Of a stretch of DNA of 37,706 bases, positions 17,103 through 22,663 are shown piece after piece. A program made the position numbers and the translations under genes. The notes under the pieces are model-generated. The model was not told the DNA's origin. It did no database searches and saw nothing but the letters and a program-made list of their open reading frames with translations. Within the stretch, counting starts at the first letter, position 1; each line of letters starts with the position of its first letter. Origin of the DNA: Candidatus Dormiibacterota bacterium (lineage in GTDB: Bacteria; Chloroflexota; Dormibacteria; Aeolococcales; Bog-877); NCBI GenBank assembly GCA_013044295.1, contig JABEUU010000088.1, positions 1 through 37,706 on the forward strand. The letters run 5' to 3'.

Positions 17103-18062
17103 TCAGTCCCTCCCAGGCAAAATGCCACCCACGGCCGCCGGCACGGGGGTGCGCCAGGCGGCCATGTCCTCGACCTCGCCGCGAGCCACCTGCAGGTAGG
17201 CGCGCTGGAGCTCTTGGGTCAGAGGCCCGATCTCACCGTTGCCAATGATGCGCCCGTCGACTTGGGTGATCGGAGCCAGCTGCACCCCCGTTCCCGAAAG
17301 GAAGGCCTCATCCGCTGAGAGCAGCTCGCTGCGGTCGACCCGGCGCACCTCGAGGGGCCATCCCCGCTGGCGGACCAGCTCGATCACGCAATCCCTGGTG
17401 ATGCCGACCAGCACATCGTCGGTGGCCTGCGGGGTGATCACGGTTCCGCCCGCGACCAGGAATAGATTGGAGGAGGAGGCCTCGGCCACGTGGCCGTCAC
17501 CGGTGAGCATGATCGCCTCGTCGAATCCTCTCGCCCGCGCCTCGTCGGAGGCCAGAGCGGCGTTGATGTAGGCCCCCGTGGGCTTGGCGCGGGCGGGGAT
17601 GGCGTTGTCGTCGATCCGCCGCCAGGCCGAGATCATCACGTTGAGGCCCTTGCGGATGTCCAGGTAATCTCCGAAGGGCTGGGTGAAGACGCACAGGTCG
17701 GTGGCGATGCCGGAGAGGGTCACCTTGATGGTGCGCCCAGACTTGTAGAGGATGGGGCGGATGTAGACATCCTCCCGGTATCCGTTTCGGGCCAGCAGCT
17801 CCAGGATGATCGATTCAATTCTGCCCTGGGTGAGGGTGGGGTCGGGCTCCAGGTGGAGGATGTGGGCGGAGCGAAGCAGCCGCTCCGCGTGCTCACGCAG
17901 GCGCAGCACGTAGAGCTGCTCCTTGACCGGGTTCCAATAGGCGCGGATCCCCTCGAAGCAGCCGGTACCGTAGTTGAAGGCGTGGGTGGAGATGGGCACG
18001 CGGGCCTCGTCCTTGTCGACGAAGCCGCTCTCGAAGTAGACGATGTCTCCCGGGCTGCTCAT
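17103..18062 (-). CDS. Class IV (branched-chain amino acid-type) aminotransferase
   Basis: A 319-residue PLP enzyme of fold type IV, closest in layout to branched-chain aminotransferases (IlvE). Features are FNYGTGCFEGIRAYW near residue 30, the YIRPILYKSGRTIKV strand, and the PLP lysine at about residue 160 (ARAKPTGAYINA). HVAEASSSNLFLVAGG carries the conserved Glu, VGITRDCVIEL the phosphate-binding turn and SGTGVQLAPITQVDGR the C-terminal loop. It would transfer the amino group of a hydrophobic amino acid to 2-oxoglutarate. The start ATG overlaps the SDR stop by 4 nt (ATGA), and its own stop is 1 nt before the next GTG. Within a cluster with an Lrp regulator and an APC permease, a catabolic role on an imported amino acid is likely. 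It need not be the biosynthetic IlvE. Confidence 0.92.
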   Translation of the reverse strand: MSSPGDIVYFESGFVDKDEARVPISTHAFNYGTGCFEGIRAYWNPVKEQLYVLRLREHAERLLRSAHILHLEPDPTLTQGRIESIILELLARNGYREDVYIRPILYKSGRTIKVTLSGIATDLCVFTQPFGDYLDIRKGLNVMISAWRRIDDNAIPARAKPTGAYINAALASDEARARGFDEAIMLTGDGHVAEASSSNLFLVAGGTVITPQATDDVLVGITRDCVIELVRQRGWPLEVRRVDRSELLSADEAFLSGTGVQLAPITQVDGRIIGNGEIGPLTQELQRAYLQVARGEVEDMAAWRTPVPAAVGGILPGRD

Positions 18063-18838
18063 ATATACCTCCCCATGCCGCCGGACACGTCGATGGACGC
18101 GCCCGTGATATAGCTCGCGTGCCGGCTGGCCAAAAAGGCGACCAGTCCGGCGACCTCGTCTGGTTCGCCGAATCGTCCCAACGGGACCTCCGGCGCCGCG
18201 GTCCTATCCAGGAACTCGGACTCGGTGAGCTCGGGAGCGCGGCGGCGATGGATGGCGGCCCACTGGGGTGTCCGCACCAAACCGATGTTGACCGAATTGA
18301 CCAGGATCCTCTCGGGACCAAGCTCCATCGCGAGCGCCTTGTTGAAGGCCAGACAGGCGGCCCTGTCCACGGTGGTCGCGAAGAAGTCCGGGTCGGGCTG
18401 GCGGCCGTAGATGGCGTTGACGTTGATGATCACGCCGCCGCCAGCGGCTCGCAGATGAGGCAGAGCGGCGCGGCTGCACCGGATCTGAGAGAACAGCTTG
18501 ACATCGAGGTCGGCCTGGAAGTCGGCATCGGTGAGGGTCTCAAACGTGCCTGGGTGGGCCCGCCCAGCATTGTTCACCAGGATGTCGAGGCCGCCGAACT
18601 CCTCCGCCGACCTGGCGATGAAGCGTTCTACATCGCCCGGAATGGTCACGTCAGCCACCTCGGCCCGCACCCGTCCCAGCTCTCCCAGCCGCTCAGCCGC
18701 GATCGTCAGCTCGTCTCCGTGCCGCGAGCAGATGGCGACGACCGCGCCCTCCTGGAGCAGGAGTTCCGCGATCGCATAGCCCAAGCCCTTGGACCCGCCG
18801 GTAACGATGGCGCGGCGCCCTCCCAGGCCCAGGTCCAC
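18059..18838 (-). CDS. Short-chain dehydrogenase/reductase-fold protein lacking the catalytic tetrad
   Basis: A 259-residue Rossmann-fold SDR. The cofactor motif TGGSKGLG (residues 13-20) and the LVNNAG motif (residues 87-92) are intact, as is the C-terminal DVSGGMG segment, so NAD(P) binding looks preserved. The catalytic residues do not fit. The usual Asn-Ser-Tyr-Lys positions align with Lys114, Ala142, Thr155 and Arg159 (NVNAIYG and ATTVDRAACLAF replace ISSxxG and YxxxKAA). The start is GTG 18838, with GGAG overlapping the cupin stop. The stop overlaps the aminotransferase start in ATGA, so it is translationally coupled. It may use another base, work on an unusual substrate, or act as a cofactor-binding partner. 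It is second in the operon. Confidence 0.9.
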   Translation of the reverse strand: MDLGLGGRRAIVTGGSKGLGYAIAELLLQEGAVVAICSRHGDELTIAAERLGELGRVRAEVADVTIPGDVERFIARSAEEFGGLDILVNNAGRAHPGTFETLTDADFQADLDVKLFSQIRCSRAALPHLRAAGGGVIINVNAIYGRQPDPDFFATTVDRAACLAFNKALAMELGPERILVNSVNIGLVRTPQWAAIHRRRAPELTESEFLDRTAAPEVPLGRFGEPDEVAGLVAFLASRHASYITGASIDVSGGMGRYI

Positions 18839-18844
18839 CTTGGC

Positions 18845-19267
18845 CTACTCCGACGCTCGTCGACGGGCGTCGCTCGCCAGGTCGAGGAGGGCCTGCCTGG
18901 GAGGGTTGAAGACGTCGAACTCGAGACAGGCGCCGTCTTTGGTGCGGGCCCCATGGGAGACGTTGGCGGGTACCACCGCGACCATGCCCGGAGTCAGCTG
19001 CCGGACCTCCCCGTCGATCTCGAACTCCAGCTCACCTTCGACCACAAGGGTGATCTGCTCCTCGTCGTGGACATGCACCGGCGCCTCGGTGTGGGGCTCG
19101 AAGTGGACCGCCATCAGCATGGTGCGCTCTCCGAGCAGGTATCGAAATTCCAGCCCGGGTACGAACTGAACTGGGTCCTCTCCCCTTTGCAGATCCACGA
19201 AGCGGCCGGGAGCGGTGGGGGGTCGACCTGAGCCGACCTGGCTGAAGTACTGGTCCGCAAGGCTCAT
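18845..19267 (-). CDS. Cupin-domain protein
   Basis: A 140-residue single-domain cupin. Motif 1 is HVHDEEQITLVVEGELEF (H-x-H plus a later Glu/Gln and Gly). Motif 2 is GMVAVVPANVSHG, with the third histidine, so a mononuclear metal site (two His from motif 1, one from motif 2) is complete. It could be a small dioxygenase, isomerase or ligand-binding protein. ATG 19267 is chosen because GAGGGAG lies 9 nt upstream; the GTG at 19291 precedes that site. It is the first gene of the minus-strand operon, with the SDR starting 6 nt after its stop, and is expressed from the divergent promoter shared with the Lrp gene. Confidence 0.85.
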   Translation of the reverse strand: MSLADQYFSQVGSGRPPTAPGRFVDLQRGEDPVQFVPGLEFRYLLGERTMLMAVHFEPHTEAPVHVHDEEQITLVVEGELEFEIDGEVRQLTPGMVAVVPANVSHGARTKDGACLEFDVFNPPRQALLDLASDARRRASE

Positions 19268-19354
19268 CCTGTTTCGCTCCCTCTTTTCCACAGATCGGTT
19301 AGATCCAGCGCAGCGGCTCGCGCCCGCATTTGGCCGGTCGTCATGGATAGCCTG

Positions 19355-19363
19355 ACTATAGCA
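19355..19363 (-). promoter_or_regulatory. Extended -10 promoter of the cupin operon
   Basis: On the minus strand TGCTATAGT is an extended -10 element: TG, one base, then TATAGT, five of six matches. It points into the cupin gene with a leader of about 80 nt and a Shine-Dalgarno. The -35 region is weak, as expected for an extended -10 promoter. Confidence 0.5.
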
Positions 19364-19374
19364 TTAGCAGCTAT
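19358..19374. promoter_or_regulatory. Candidate Lrp-type operator, 17-bp inverted repeat
   Basis: ATAGC-ATTAGCA-GCTAT is a perfect 5-bp dyad with a 7-nt spacer. It overlaps the minus-strand -10 and the start of the plus-strand -10 (TATGAT at 19372). A regulator bound here would control both operons. The AT-rich dyad and the adjacent Lrp/AsnC gene suggest autoregulation. Confidence 0.45.
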
Positions 19375-19377
19375 GAT
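19372..19377 (+). promoter_or_regulatory. -10 box of the Lrp/GATase/GS operon
   Basis: TATGAT (five of six matches) faces right. It is followed by 6 nt and then the GTG at 19384, giving a leaderless start for a short upstream frame. No strong -35 is visible. Confidence 0.45.
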
Positions 19378-19383
19378 GTGATG

Positions 19384-19413
19384 GTGAGTAGCCGTCCATA
19401 CCATTGCAAGTGA
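19384..19413 (+). CDS. Possible leaderless 9-residue upstream peptide
   Basis: GTG 19384 starts exactly 6 nt after the TATGAT box and encodes nine residues (MSSRPYHCK). Its TGA stop overlaps the ATG of the Lrp gene by one base (TGATG), so translation of the short frame could feed ribosomes into the regulator. An in-frame ATG at 19381 is an alternative start. The Lrp ATG has no clear Shine-Dalgarno of its own, which supports coupling. A frame this short can arise by chance; it rests on spacing and overlap only. Confidence 0.3.
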   Translation: MSSRPYHCK

Positions 19414-20030
19414 TGGCCAAGCCAAGTGCGCGCCTTACTAATGACAACCGTGGGCTCGCGTCCCCGGGGCCGGAGCAGCCGCCAGCTCACGCAGTTGACG
19501 CCACCGACCTTGCGATCCTGGTCCACCTCCTGCGCGACGCCCGGGTCTCGGTGCGAAGGATCGCGGCGGCGGTGGGGATGTCTGCACCCGCGGTGACCGA
19601 GCGCATTGCGCGGCTCGAGCGCAGCGCGATCATCCGCGGCTATCGGGCCGATGTCGACTGGGCGAAGCTCGGCTATGCCGTGATCGCCTATGTGTTGGTC
19701 ACCGGGGTGCAGGGCTGGGAGCAGACCGAGACGGTGGAGGCGCTGCGGAGCCTCTTGGAGGTGGAGGATGTGACGGTCGTCACCGGCGCCTCGGACCTGC
19801 TGGTCCGGGTCCGGGTCCGCGACCAGCAGCATCTGCGCGAGTGCCTCTTCGATCGCCTCTGGAAAGTTCCTGGCGTGCACCGGACCGAGACCGTGCTCTG
19901 CCTGACCGACCCCGGTCCGAGGACCTTTGACCTGCATCTGGCGGAGGCCATGCTGGCAGAGTCGAGAGGGGATCGAGCCGCGCACACAGTTCCGGAGCCA
20001 GGCCGTCGGCCCTCCAAGAGGTCCAAGTGA
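19413..20030 (+). CDS. Lrp/AsnC-family transcriptional regulator
   Basis: A 205-residue regulator. After a disordered N-terminus of about 28 residues comes the winged helix-turn-helix (DATDLAILVHLLRDARVSVRRI, then VGMSAPAVTERIARLE as the recognition region). The beta-rich RAM (ligand-binding, oligomerisation) domain follows from about GYAVIAYVLV to VLCLTDPG. ATG 19413 is preferred; TTG 19404 and GTG 19410 are in-frame alternatives. It faces away from the cupin operon across a 145-bp region with a dyad, and its stop overlaps the amidotransferase start (TGATG). It probably senses an amino acid and controls both divergent operons. The C-terminal 25 residues are Pro/Arg-rich and beyond the usual length. 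Confidence 0.92.
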   Translation: MAKPSARLTNDNRGLASPGPEQPPAHAVDATDLAILVHLLRDARVSVRRIAAAVGMSAPAVTERIARLERSAIIRGYRADVDWAKLGYAVIAYVLVTGVQGWEQTETVEALRSLLEVEDVTVVTGASDLLVRVRVRDQQHLRECLFDRLWKVPGVHRTETVLCLTDPGPRTFDLHLAEAMLAESRGDRAAHTVPEPGRRPSKRSK

Positions 20031-20719
20031 TGTGTGAGATTCTGCTGGCGGTGTGGCCCGAGCCGAGCCCGATCGAGCAGGTGCTGGAGTGGGGCACGGC
20101 GCTGGAGCGCTACGGCCTCGGTGGCTTCGGATGGGGCGTTGCCTGGCGTGGTCCAAAGGGCGTGGCCAGCTACCGCCACCCTGGGCAGCTGGCCGGTGAC
20201 GACGCGGGCCGGGCCCGGCTGGCGTCGATCCGCTCCACCCACTTCCTGGTCCACCTGCGTCGGCCCTCGCAACTGACCACCATCGCCCTTGCCGACACTC
20301 AGCCGTTCCGAGCTGAGGACGGAAGCTTCGCCTTCGCGCACAACGGCCGACTTGACGGCGCCGAGGGCCTGCGTGGACGCTTCGGGACCAAGCTGCAAGG
20401 ACGGGCCGACAGCGAGGTCGGATTCCGCCTCTTCGAGGAGCTGTTGGGGGAGGGCCAGAGCGCGAGGGCTGCTCTGCCCGCGATTCACACCCGACTCGGT
20501 GGCACCGCGAATCTGGCCTTCCTACCGGCGGAGGGAGCGCCTCTGGTCTACGCCGGGGCGCCTGCCAACCAGCTCTGGAGCTTCGACTTGGCCGGCGCCG
20601 AGGTGGTCAGCACCGGGCTCCACTCCACGGACGAGGCGGTATTCGAGTTCTGCTTCCCCGGGGCGTCGCACCGGGCAAGGATCGGGGACGGCGAGACGGC
20701 GGCGGTGGCGGAGAGTTAG
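20030..20719 (+). CDS. Standalone class II glutamine amidotransferase (EgtC/YafJ-like)
   Basis: A 229-residue Ntn-type amidotransferase domain. The nucleophile is Cys2 (MCEILLAV), exposed after Met removal. Other hallmarks are STHFLVHLRRPS (the Arg that binds the glutamine carboxylate), DTQPF, FAFAHNGRLDG (Asn-Gly of the oxyanion hole) and RADSEVGFRLFEEL (Asp). There is no synthase domain, as in YafJ and EgtC; EgtC removes glutamate from a gamma-glutamyl intermediate. ATG 20030 overlaps the Lrp stop by one base. The GTG at 20027 would add a residue before the Cys and is rejected. The neighbouring GS-like ligase suggests that it hydrolyses the gamma-glutamyl bond the ligase makes, or supplies ammonia. 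Confidence 0.9.
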   Translation: MCEILLAVWPEPSPIEQVLEWGTALERYGLGGFGWGVAWRGPKGVASYRHPGQLAGDDAGRARLASIRSTHFLVHLRRPSQLTTIALADTQPFRAEDGSFAFAHNGRLDGAEGLRGRFGTKLQGRADSEVGFRLFEELLGEGQSARAALPAIHTRLGGTANLAFLPAEGAPLVYAGAPANQLWSFDLAGAEVVSTGLHSTDEAVFEFCFPGASHRARIGDGETAAVAES

Positions 20720-20827
20720 TCGGCGTCCGAGGAGCTGGGGCCAGACGGGGTCGGCTGCGGCCAACCGCGCCAGCCGCCCCGATCAGCACCGAGGCGAGCG
20801 CGCAACCGAGACCAGAAGGAGAGGCAG

Positions 20828-22303
20828 ATGGCGAAGATTCTCCCCCGCGACCTGGCCATGGGCAAGGTCGGCTTCGTAGCGGAGCACCGGCTCTACGACG
20901 AGGCCAAGGGCGCAGCCGCCGAGGCCGCTGCGGCGGCCGTGGCGGACCAGGGCATCCGCACCGTGCGGATCATGTGGCCGGACCAGCACGGCGCGCTGCG
21001 CGGCAAGTTCGTGTCCGCGCGCGACTTCGCGCTCTCGCTCCGCAATGGCATGGACTTCTCCGGGGCGCTGCTCAGCATGGACTCCGCCAATCACGTCTTC
21101 CCCCCGCTGTTCGTGGAGGGGGGCGGCTTCGGCATCCCGGAGCTGACCGGGTTCCCAGATGTGGTGCTGGTGCCTGACCCCACGACCTTCCGGGTCCTGC
21201 CGTGGGCGGACGCCACGGCCTGGGTGATGTGCGACATGTACTTCGGCAACGGCAAGGAGGTGACGCTCTCCACCCGCTCTGTGATGCGCCGCCAGCTCCA
21301 GGCGGCAGCCGAGATGGGGTTCGACTACGTCGCCGGCCTCGAGGTGGAGTTCTACATCACCCGGCGCGAATGGGACCGGATCGCTCCCGACCAGACCGGG
21401 TGGCCGCCGGTGGCGCCCCCGGTGAGCATGGTCGCCCAGGGCTACCAGTACCTGTCCGAGACCAGGCTGGCACAGTTGGGCGACATTCTCAACCCCCTGC
21501 GGGACAACCTGGAGGAGATCGGACTTCCGCTGCGCAGCATCGAGGACGAGTGGGGCCCGGGCCAGACCGAGATCACCCTCGACCCCATGGTCGGGCTGGG
21601 CGCGGCCGACGCCATGATCATCCTGCGCTCGGCGATCAAGCAGATCTGTCATGAGCGTGGCTACCACGCCACCTTCATGTGCCGTCCCCTGCTGCCCAAT
21701 GTCTCCTCCAGCGGATGGCATCTCCACGAGTCGCTGCGGGACGCCAAGGCCGGTCGCAACGCATTCCAGGGCGGCAAGGGGGAGGTGCTCTCGGAGGCGG
21801 GGCGGCAATTCGCCGCTGGCATCCTCCAGCACGCGGTCCCGATGACCGTGTTCTCGACCCCGACGATCAACGGGTACAAGCGCTTCCGGCCCTACTCGTT
21901 CGCCCCCGACCGGGTCAACTGGGCGATGGAGAACCGCGGCGCCATGCTCCGGGTCCAGGGTCAGCCGGGGGACCCGGGATCACACCTCGAGAACCGGTTG
22001 GGAGAGCCGGCCGCAAATCCCTACCTCTACATGGCCGCCAACATAGCGGCCGGCCTGGACGGAATCCGCCAGAAGCTGGTGCCGCCGCCCCCGGTGACGG
22101 CGGACCCCTACCAGGAGGCGGCTCAGCTGTTGCCAACTTCACTCTGGGAGGCGGTCGACGCCCTCGACCAGGACCAGTTCTTCCGCCAAGCGCTCGGGAG
22201 AGAGATCGTCGACTTCATTGTCATGATGAAGCGAGCCGAGGTGGCGCGCTTCCTGAGCACCGTCACCGACTGGGAGCAGAATGAATACTTCGAGTTCTTC
22301 TGA
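20828..22303 (+). CDS. Glutamine synthetase-family gamma-glutamyl ligase
   Basis: A 491-residue GS-fold ligase. The beta-grasp part opens with VRIMWPDQHGALRGKFV, typical of GS-like proteins acting on amines rather than ammonia (GlnA3/GlnA4, PuuA, FluG types). Active-site segments are complete: GLEVEFY (metal Glu pair), EDEWGPGQTEI, SSGWHLHESL (metal His), NGYKRFRPY and NRGAMLRV (substrate and ATP Arg). The NPYLYMAANIAAGLDGI helix follows. No adenylylation-type Tyr loop was recognised at the C-terminus (DWEQNEYFEFF). The ATG has AAGGAGAGG upstream. It would ligate glutamate to an amine or amino compound using ATP. It is third in the Lrp operon, 108 nt after the amidotransferase, and is the counterpart of the GS half of FluG. 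Confidence 0.93.
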   Translation: MAKILPRDLAMGKVGFVAEHRLYDEAKGAAAEAAAAAVADQGIRTVRIMWPDQHGALRGKFVSARDFALSLRNGMDFSGALLSMDSANHVFPPLFVEGGGFGIPELTGFPDVVLVPDPTTFRVLPWADATAWVMCDMYFGNGKEVTLSTRSVMRRQLQAAAEMGFDYVAGLEVEFYITRREWDRIAPDQTGWPPVAPPVSMVAQGYQYLSETRLAQLGDILNPLRDNLEEIGLPLRSIEDEWGPGQTEITLDPMVGLGAADAMIILRSAIKQICHERGYHATFMCRPLLPNVSSSGWHLHESLRDAKAGRNAFQGGKGEVLSEAGRQFAAGILQHAVPMTVFSTPTINGYKRFRPYSFAPDRVNWAMENRGAMLRVQGQPGDPGSHLENRLGEPAANPYLYMAANIAAGLDGIRQKLVPPPPVTADPYQEAAQLLPTSLWEAVDALDQDQFFRQALGREIVDFIVMMKRAEVARFLSTVTDWEQNEYFEFF

Positions 22304-22333: not shown

Positions 22334-22663
22334 ATGTCTCAACCGGTCCAGCATCTGGTGTTATTCCGTCTGGCCGAGCCCCCGGGGCCCGAGGTGGAAG
22401 AGGAGATGCGGCGGCAGATCTCGACCTGGGCCGGGGTGATTCCCGGACTGCGCCGGCTGCGCTTCGGTGCCGACACCGGAGGCCGGGCCGATGGCTACCA
22501 GTTCTGCCTGCTCACCGAGTTCGAGGACGCCGAGGCGCTGGCGGCCTACCTTCCCCATCCGCTCCATGCCGCCTTTCTGCGATGGGTGCAGGATCGACCG
22601 TTCGAGGTGCTCCGGTTCGACTACCCTCTGGATGAAAGGACCAGCCTGCTGGAGAGCGCCTGA
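22334..22663 (+). CDS. Dabb (stress-responsive alpha/beta barrel) domain protein
   Basis: A 109-residue Dabb-family protein (ferredoxin-like dimeric fold). The opening QHLVLFRLAEP is the typical His-containing strand (H-x-V-x-F-x). PGLRRLRFGADTGGRADGYQFCLLTEFEDAEALAAYLPHP is the standard central part, ending in the FLRWV helix. Such proteins include small monooxygenases, cyclases and stress proteins. GAGGGGG lies about 13 nt before the ATG, and the gene starts 30 nt after the GS-like stop, so it probably belongs to the same operon. A role in converting or holding an intermediate is inference only. Confidence 0.85.
   Translation: MSQPVQHLVLFRLAEPPGPEVEEEMRRQISTWAGVIPGLRRLRFGADTGGRADGYQFCLLTEFEDAEALAAYLPHPLHAAFLRWVQDRPFEVLRFDYPLDERTSLLESA

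Follow-up and report, generated by a model that had tools for sequence, protein, structure and literature searches.

Predicted overlapping divergent promoters and a probable leaderless, coupled mini-ORF upstream of an Lrp-family regulator gene in a Candidatus Dormiibacterota genome

In the 37,706-nucleotide stretch of DNA that was analysed here (the window), the sequence between two presumed divergent operons is probably organised as a pair of overlapping, mutually occluding promoters, which would give a leadered cupin mRNA on one side and, on the other, a leaderless lrp mRNA translated via a coupled mini-ORF. We assign this reading a probability of about 0.68. In this model, the minus-strand promoter would produce a leadered cupin-SDR-aminotransferase mRNA that is translated from a Shine-Dalgarno sequence, and the plus-strand promoter would produce a leaderless mRNA that begins directly with the GTG codon at 19384. 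A ribosome loading at this GTG would read nine codons, stop at the TGA at 19411-19413 and re-initiate on the overlapping lrp GTG at 19410 or the adjacent ATG at 19413, a start without a Shine-Dalgarno sequence of its own, while a second GTGA overlap would join lrp to the amidotransferase gene. Lrp may add a further layer of control. The features of the locus are as follows (coordinates, strand, description):

17103-18062, minus: branched-chain aminotransferase-like gene (NF005146, 321.7 bits against a cut-off of 279)
18059-18838, minus: short-chain dehydrogenase (SDR) gene (domain match and linkage)
18845-19267, minus: cupin gene, first of the divergent operon (Cupin_2, 1.4e-14, frame read from 19291)
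19355-19363, minus: extended -10 element TGCTATAGT of the predicted cupin-operon promoter (letters and clade conservation; predicted start ~19348)
19358-19374, no strand: dyad ATAGC-N7-GCTAT, in which four of five pairs are positions of the two face-to-face -10 elements
19372-19377, plus: -10 element TATGAT of the predicted lrp-operon promoter (clade conservation; predicted start 19384)
19384-19413, plus: predicted leaderless mini-ORF of 9 codons (V/M-SSRPYHCK); its TGA and the lrp start codon overlap as GTGA
19410-20030, plus: Lrp/AsnC-family regulator gene (lrp), starting at GTG 19410 or ATG 19413, no Shine-Dalgarno sequence
20027-20719, plus: class II glutamine amidotransferase-like gene (GATase_4, 5.1e-08)
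20828-22303, plus: glutamine synthetase (GS)-like gene, presumed to belong to the lrp operon (Gln-synt_C, 2.1e-86)
22334-22663, plus: Dabb-domain gene (domain match and linkage)

Gene layout and the predicted divergent promoter pair

The Lrp protein matches the HTH_AsnC-type (9.4e-14) and AsnC_trans_reg (2.7e-13) domains, both above their curated cut-offs (51.4 bits against 27 and 50.1 bits against 25, respectively). The lrp stop codon and the amidotransferase GTG overlap as GTGA at 20027-20030, and this junction has the same AAGTGATG string as the junction between the mini-ORF and lrp. On the opposite strand, the cupin ATG at 19267 has a Shine-Dalgarno sequence and a predicted 5' UTR of ~81 nt. 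The cluster as a whole (20027-22303 and 17103-18838) brings a GS-like ligase together with a class II amidotransferase, an aminotransferase, an SDR and a cupin. The GS-like protein matched five NCBIfam models but reached the cut-off of none, so a role as gamma-glutamyl ligase acting on another amine is possible.

A search for the Lrp gene in 61 genomes gave matches at E up to 1e-20 in 22 of them. The gene is present in 15 of the 18 genomes of the window's family and in 21 of the 50 genomes of its order. Linkage of the two halves of the locus is long-lived, as a cupin match adjoins lrp in 13 of the 14 other family loci, the exception being genome G005. Cupin and lrp also share a cluster, ~1.4-1.5 kb apart, in five loci of family f2 (genus and family labels are those assigned by the tool). 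Judging from this distribution, the divergent arrangement of cupin-SDR-aminotransferase against lrp-amidotransferase-GS-Dabb is old. The region upstream of lrp in f2 differs from that of the window, featuring a TTGACA element and a conserved TTGCC...GGCAA block, which indicates that the control sequence varies between families although the linkage is kept.

The overlapping divergent promoters described in the initial annotation are supported: all of the letters that it listed are present, and both -10 elements are retained in all 11 loci of the window's clade. These 11 loci, from genera g1 and g5, make up the intergenic alignment on which the conservation counts are based; four other family loci (L095-L098) were too diverged and were left out. 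In every clade locus, 11 bp separate the facing -10 elements, the minus element reads TATAGT, TATAAT or TATCAT with TG at the extended position, and the plus element reads TATGAT or TATCAT. This block is conserved amid a diverged intergenic region: across five divergent loci, 20 of 33 columns are invariant at 19354-19386, which contains the two -10 elements and the start codon, compared with 5 of 64 upstream (19290-19353) and none of 20 in the body of the mini-ORF (19387-19406). A -35-like ATCACA for the minus promoter lies at 19382-19377 with a spacer of 16, and the ten aligned relatives have CTTACA there (minus strand; TGTAAG when read on the plus strand), a conservation that could be due to a -35-like hexamer of the minus promoter. 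The plus promoter features no recognisable -35 element, the scan found no two-hexamer plus-strand promoter, and the T of an extended -10 is absent. By eye, L097 and L098 carry a minus-strand TATCAT ~21-22 bp from the plus element, and no clear minus promoter was seen in L095 or L096. Collectively, two divergent promoters at 19355-19377 are a well-supported prediction.

Transcription starts were predicted by placing +1 at 7 nt past each -10 element. This puts them at 19348 (minus) and 19384 (plus), 36 bp apart and served by two separate -10 elements. At this distance each -10 element would fall within the footprint of a polymerase bound at the other promoter, so the two operons would be tied together by occlusion even without a regulator. 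As a polymerase on one promoter would cover the other, activation of one side is expected to lead to reciprocal rather than joint switching.

The predicted leaderless start and its mini-ORF

A leaderless start and a coupled mini-ORF did not feature in the initial annotation. In the window, the plus -10 element is followed by exactly 6 nt and then by the GTG at 19384. The same TATNAT-N6-RTG arrangement is found in 14 of the 15 family loci, with L097 as the sole locus to break the 6-nt rule, and this is the spacing of a leaderless start, provided that transcription begins where predicted. In all 11 loci of the g1 and g5 clade, the RTG opens an out-of-frame ORF that ends at the lrp start and is nine codons long in ten loci and seven in L092. 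The mini-ORF TGA and the lrp GTG overlap as GTGA in ten of the 11 (19410-19413 in the window); the stop codon of L092 is in another phase, with its first base 4 nt ahead of the lrp GTG. These ten loci are related, so they do not constitute ten independent observations, and any frame that reaches GTGA in the mini-ORF phase stops there automatically. In three family loci from other genera (L095, L096 and L098), the corresponding RTG shares the reading frame of lrp.

The mini-ORF peptide is not conserved. Differences between six loci number 42, 57 and 60 by codon position, and this near equality gives no indication of selection on the peptide. Besides the start codon, no residue is common to all loci, and the final Lys, present in 10 of 11, is accounted for by the AAGTGA string of the overlap. 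The position and linkage of the mini-ORF are thus better kept than its peptide, with moderate support given that the loci are related. A peptide that acts as a regulatory attenuator and senses an amino acid is a highly improbable explanation of the mini-ORF. Cysteine-rich leaderless ORFs in front of cysteine genes have been proposed as attenuators in mycobacteria, according to the available part of that report (PMC4633059), and the operon looks amino-acid related, but a scan of 19240-19480 found no terminator-like site and Rfam gave no match in 18500-20800 at E up to 1. This candidate was set aside, as only the start and last codons are common across loci. Within the start of the lrp coding sequence, CCTTACTAAT at 19434-19443 is unusually conserved as DNA and also encodes a conserved LTN; seven of the 11 columns at 19435-19445 are invariant across the five divergent loci.

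Pairing with the anti-Shine-Dalgarno sequence was calculated for the starts of the locus. The window lrp start gave +0.7 kcal/mol, against a random-site median of -3.8, and has no Shine-Dalgarno sequence; the corresponding energies for the cupin, GS-like and amidotransferase starts were -8.2, -9.3 and -7.0 kcal/mol (the amidotransferase position is off by 1-2 bases). Two clade relatives do feature pairing at the lrp start (L085, -5.9 kcal/mol; L086, -10.0 kcal/mol).

A leaderless signal is apparent elsewhere in the genome. In a 613-kb sample of the assembly that includes the window, 21 of the 927 candidate ATG/GTG starts have TANNNT exactly 6 nt upstream, against an average of ~1.9 for each of the 16 offsets outside 6-9 (Poisson P ~3e-15), and a control hexamer pattern showed no peak at 6 nt in the same sample. 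The gene-calling filter gave 314 genes and was loosened to 424, with peaks of 20 of 532 and 21 of 927 candidate starts, respectively. Counts at offsets 7, 8 and 9 are also raised (7, 11 and 10), so some of these starts may have short leaders. The 6-nt peak matches the leaderless signal described for high-GC bacteria, where TANNNT lies ~12 bp upstream of leaderless genes in the available text of that study (PMC3160421). Coupled leaderless ORFs as a class are not enriched in this sample: among four candidate out-of-frame ORFs, one is coupled (the mini-ORF at 19384), compared with one of two in a control with the wrong spacing. Without a genome-wide excess, the evidence for coupling here consists of its retention in the clade and of the window lrp start that has no Shine-Dalgarno sequence.

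These data also bear on an alternative in which lrp is an ordinary gene with a short leader, transcribed from near 19384, where the nine-codon frame is unused and ribosomes begin at 19410 or 19413 without a Shine-Dalgarno sequence. The variable peptide, the pairing seen in L085 and L086 and the lack of enrichment of the coupled class in the 613-kb sample all speak for it. We nevertheless regard it as improbable: an RTG follows the -10 element at exactly 6 nt in 14 of 15 loci, whereas none of the next 20 columns is invariant, this RTG is in frame with lrp in three relatives, and the window start has no Shine-Dalgarno sequence.

In a tree of Lrp and SDR (20 rows), the 11 mini-ORF loci form one clade with support of 95/94, and the other four family loci fall outside it, which suggests that the in-frame state is the older one, although the direction is not proven. 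Measured from the leaderless codon, the lrp position that aligns with 19410 is 27 nt away in L095 and L098 (counted without gaps), 26 nt in ten clade loci and 25 nt in L092. Tentatively, and at rather less than even odds, a 1-nt length change in the ancestor of the two genera could have converted a leaderless, in-frame N-terminal extension of Lrp into an out-of-frame coupled leader ORF, with re-initiation kept through a second frame change. If true, this single-nucleotide change would be a concrete route from leaderless genes to coupled leader ORFs. The presence of an in-frame start and of an out-of-frame coupled ORF in related genera makes the origin of such ORFs testable.

The palindrome between the promoters

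The dyad ATAGCATTAGCAGCTAT spans 19358-19374, between the two promoters. Its exact string occurs once in the window (0 of 100 shuffles) and at three places in the 2.3 Mb assembly (0 for a reversed-pattern control), the two other copies being inside long open frames. The specific string is therefore rare, but a perfect 5-bp dyad of arbitrary sequence is not: two were found in 19268-19410 (spacer 0-16) against a shuffle mean of 2.07, and 278 of 500 dinucleotide shuffles reached two or more. A scan of the window for copies with up to two mismatches returned three against 4.07 expected. The dyad was rejected as a regulon signal, as its copies in the window are at chance level and the two further exact genomic copies are within long open frames.

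The pairs of the dyad (numbered by the last two digits of their positions) were then compared across the clade. Pairs 58/74, 59/73 and 60/72 form the ATA/TAT ends of the two facing -10 hexamers and are complementary in 11 of 11 loci. This is also the case for pair 62/70, the G two bases upstream of each hexamer, which on the minus side is within the TG kept in all 11 loci and on the plus side has no adjoining T. The remaining pair, 61/71 (19361/19371), occupies the free position beside each hexamer and is complementary in the window only (1 of 11), where the chance of complementarity is about one in four. As four pairs are promoter positions and the fifth is specific to the window, the dyad is mostly what two face-to-face -10 elements resemble. 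When the best dyad centre was sought across the clade, the same centre (19366) was obtained. Six of its pairs are complementary in 10 or more of the 11 loci: five at -10 or extended positions plus spacer pair 64/68, which is complementary in 10 of 11 loci and not in the window. Some extra spacer symmetry is therefore possible in the relatives.

The initial annotation had suggested that one regulator bound at the dyad would switch both operons, and had proposed its conservation upstream of Lrp orthologues as a check. Apart from promoter positions no such conservation was found, and the only pair outside those positions is complementary in one of 11 loci, so the dyad as a separate operator is not supported. 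In the fullest form of the proposal, an Lrp dimer would cover both -10 elements and repress or switch the two operons according to a single ligand. Control of a divergent neighbour is common among local Lrp/AsnC regulators, as far as the available text of PMC8707732 goes. Conservation of the cluster in its divergent form, the position of the site between the two -10 elements and the extra symmetry from pair 64/68 in the relatives speak for this reading. The outer TAG...CTA of the dyad also resembles the E. coli Lrp consensus. We still consider an Lrp operator here unlikely, given the single complementary 61/71 pair, the expectation of similar dyads by chance, the location of the other two exact genome copies within open frames, and the different TTGCC...GGCAA block of the f2 relatives. 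In the f2 loci L100-L105, the lrp leader carries this conserved dyad-symmetric block, TTGCCGAA...GAATGGCAAGT, between a promoter-like TTGACA...TAGACT/TAGCCT pair and the lrp ATG, and it is kept with small changes in five of the six loci (not in L104). It is a better operator candidate for the f2 Lrp group than the dyad of the window. Beyond the promoters, the window dyad adds nothing demonstrable, and a protein site at this position is possible. A striking palindrome between divergent genes can thus be a by-product of two face-to-face -10 elements.

Comparison with known systems

A coupled leaderless leader at an Lrp gene was the subject of no title among the literature matches listed, which is not proof of absence. 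The divergent promoters are comparable to the bidirectional promoters of E. coli and Salmonella, whose starts are 7-25 bp apart, usually 18, with a shared -10 element in the available accounts (PMC12825309, PMC10268837). The likeness lies in opposed, mutually exclusive polymerase binding, which here would follow from the predicted spacing, and in a symmetry that derives from the -10 elements. One such promoter, acrR/acrA, separates a regulator gene from the operon that it targets (PMC12825309, PMC10268837). The pair described here falls outside the Warman/Grainger definition of a bidirectional promoter, as its predicted starts are 36 bp apart and it has two separate -10 elements. In E. coli bidirectional promoters, where the starts are closer, basal transcription is described as too low for competition, and strong activation in one direction can repress the other (PMC12825309, in the part available). 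The placement of an Lrp-family gene divergent from another gene or operon is shared with PA2577/PA2576, BkdR and KynR (PMC8707732, in part), in our case on the basis of gene layout.

For the proposed re-initiation step, a parallel is provided by M. tuberculosis ppe2, where an out-of-frame uORF feeds a start without a Shine-Dalgarno sequence by termination-reinitiation, according to the available portion of PMC11260477. Both systems feature an out-of-frame uORF, a stop/start overlap and a next start without a Shine-Dalgarno sequence. Unlike the window mini-ORF, the ppe2 uORF follows a riboswitch leader with its own Shine-Dalgarno sequence (PMC11260477).

The closest parallel is found in the 'coupled' leaderless small ORFs of mycobacteria, whose linkage is sometimes kept while the peptide changes, as reported in the accessible part of Shell et al. 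2015 (PMC4633059). As in those ORFs, the window has a short ORF with a TGA/RTG overlap in the form RTGA, and its RTG would stand at the transcript 5' end if transcription begins as predicted. Unlike those ORFs, the start here is predicted rather than mapped, the lineage is another high-GC one, and in three loci from other genera of the window's family the main gene and this codon share one frame. The lrp leader is thus best read as a further, predicted instance of this known kind, and the locus suggests that a regulator in the window's family is translated by way of a leaderless, coupled mini-ORF.
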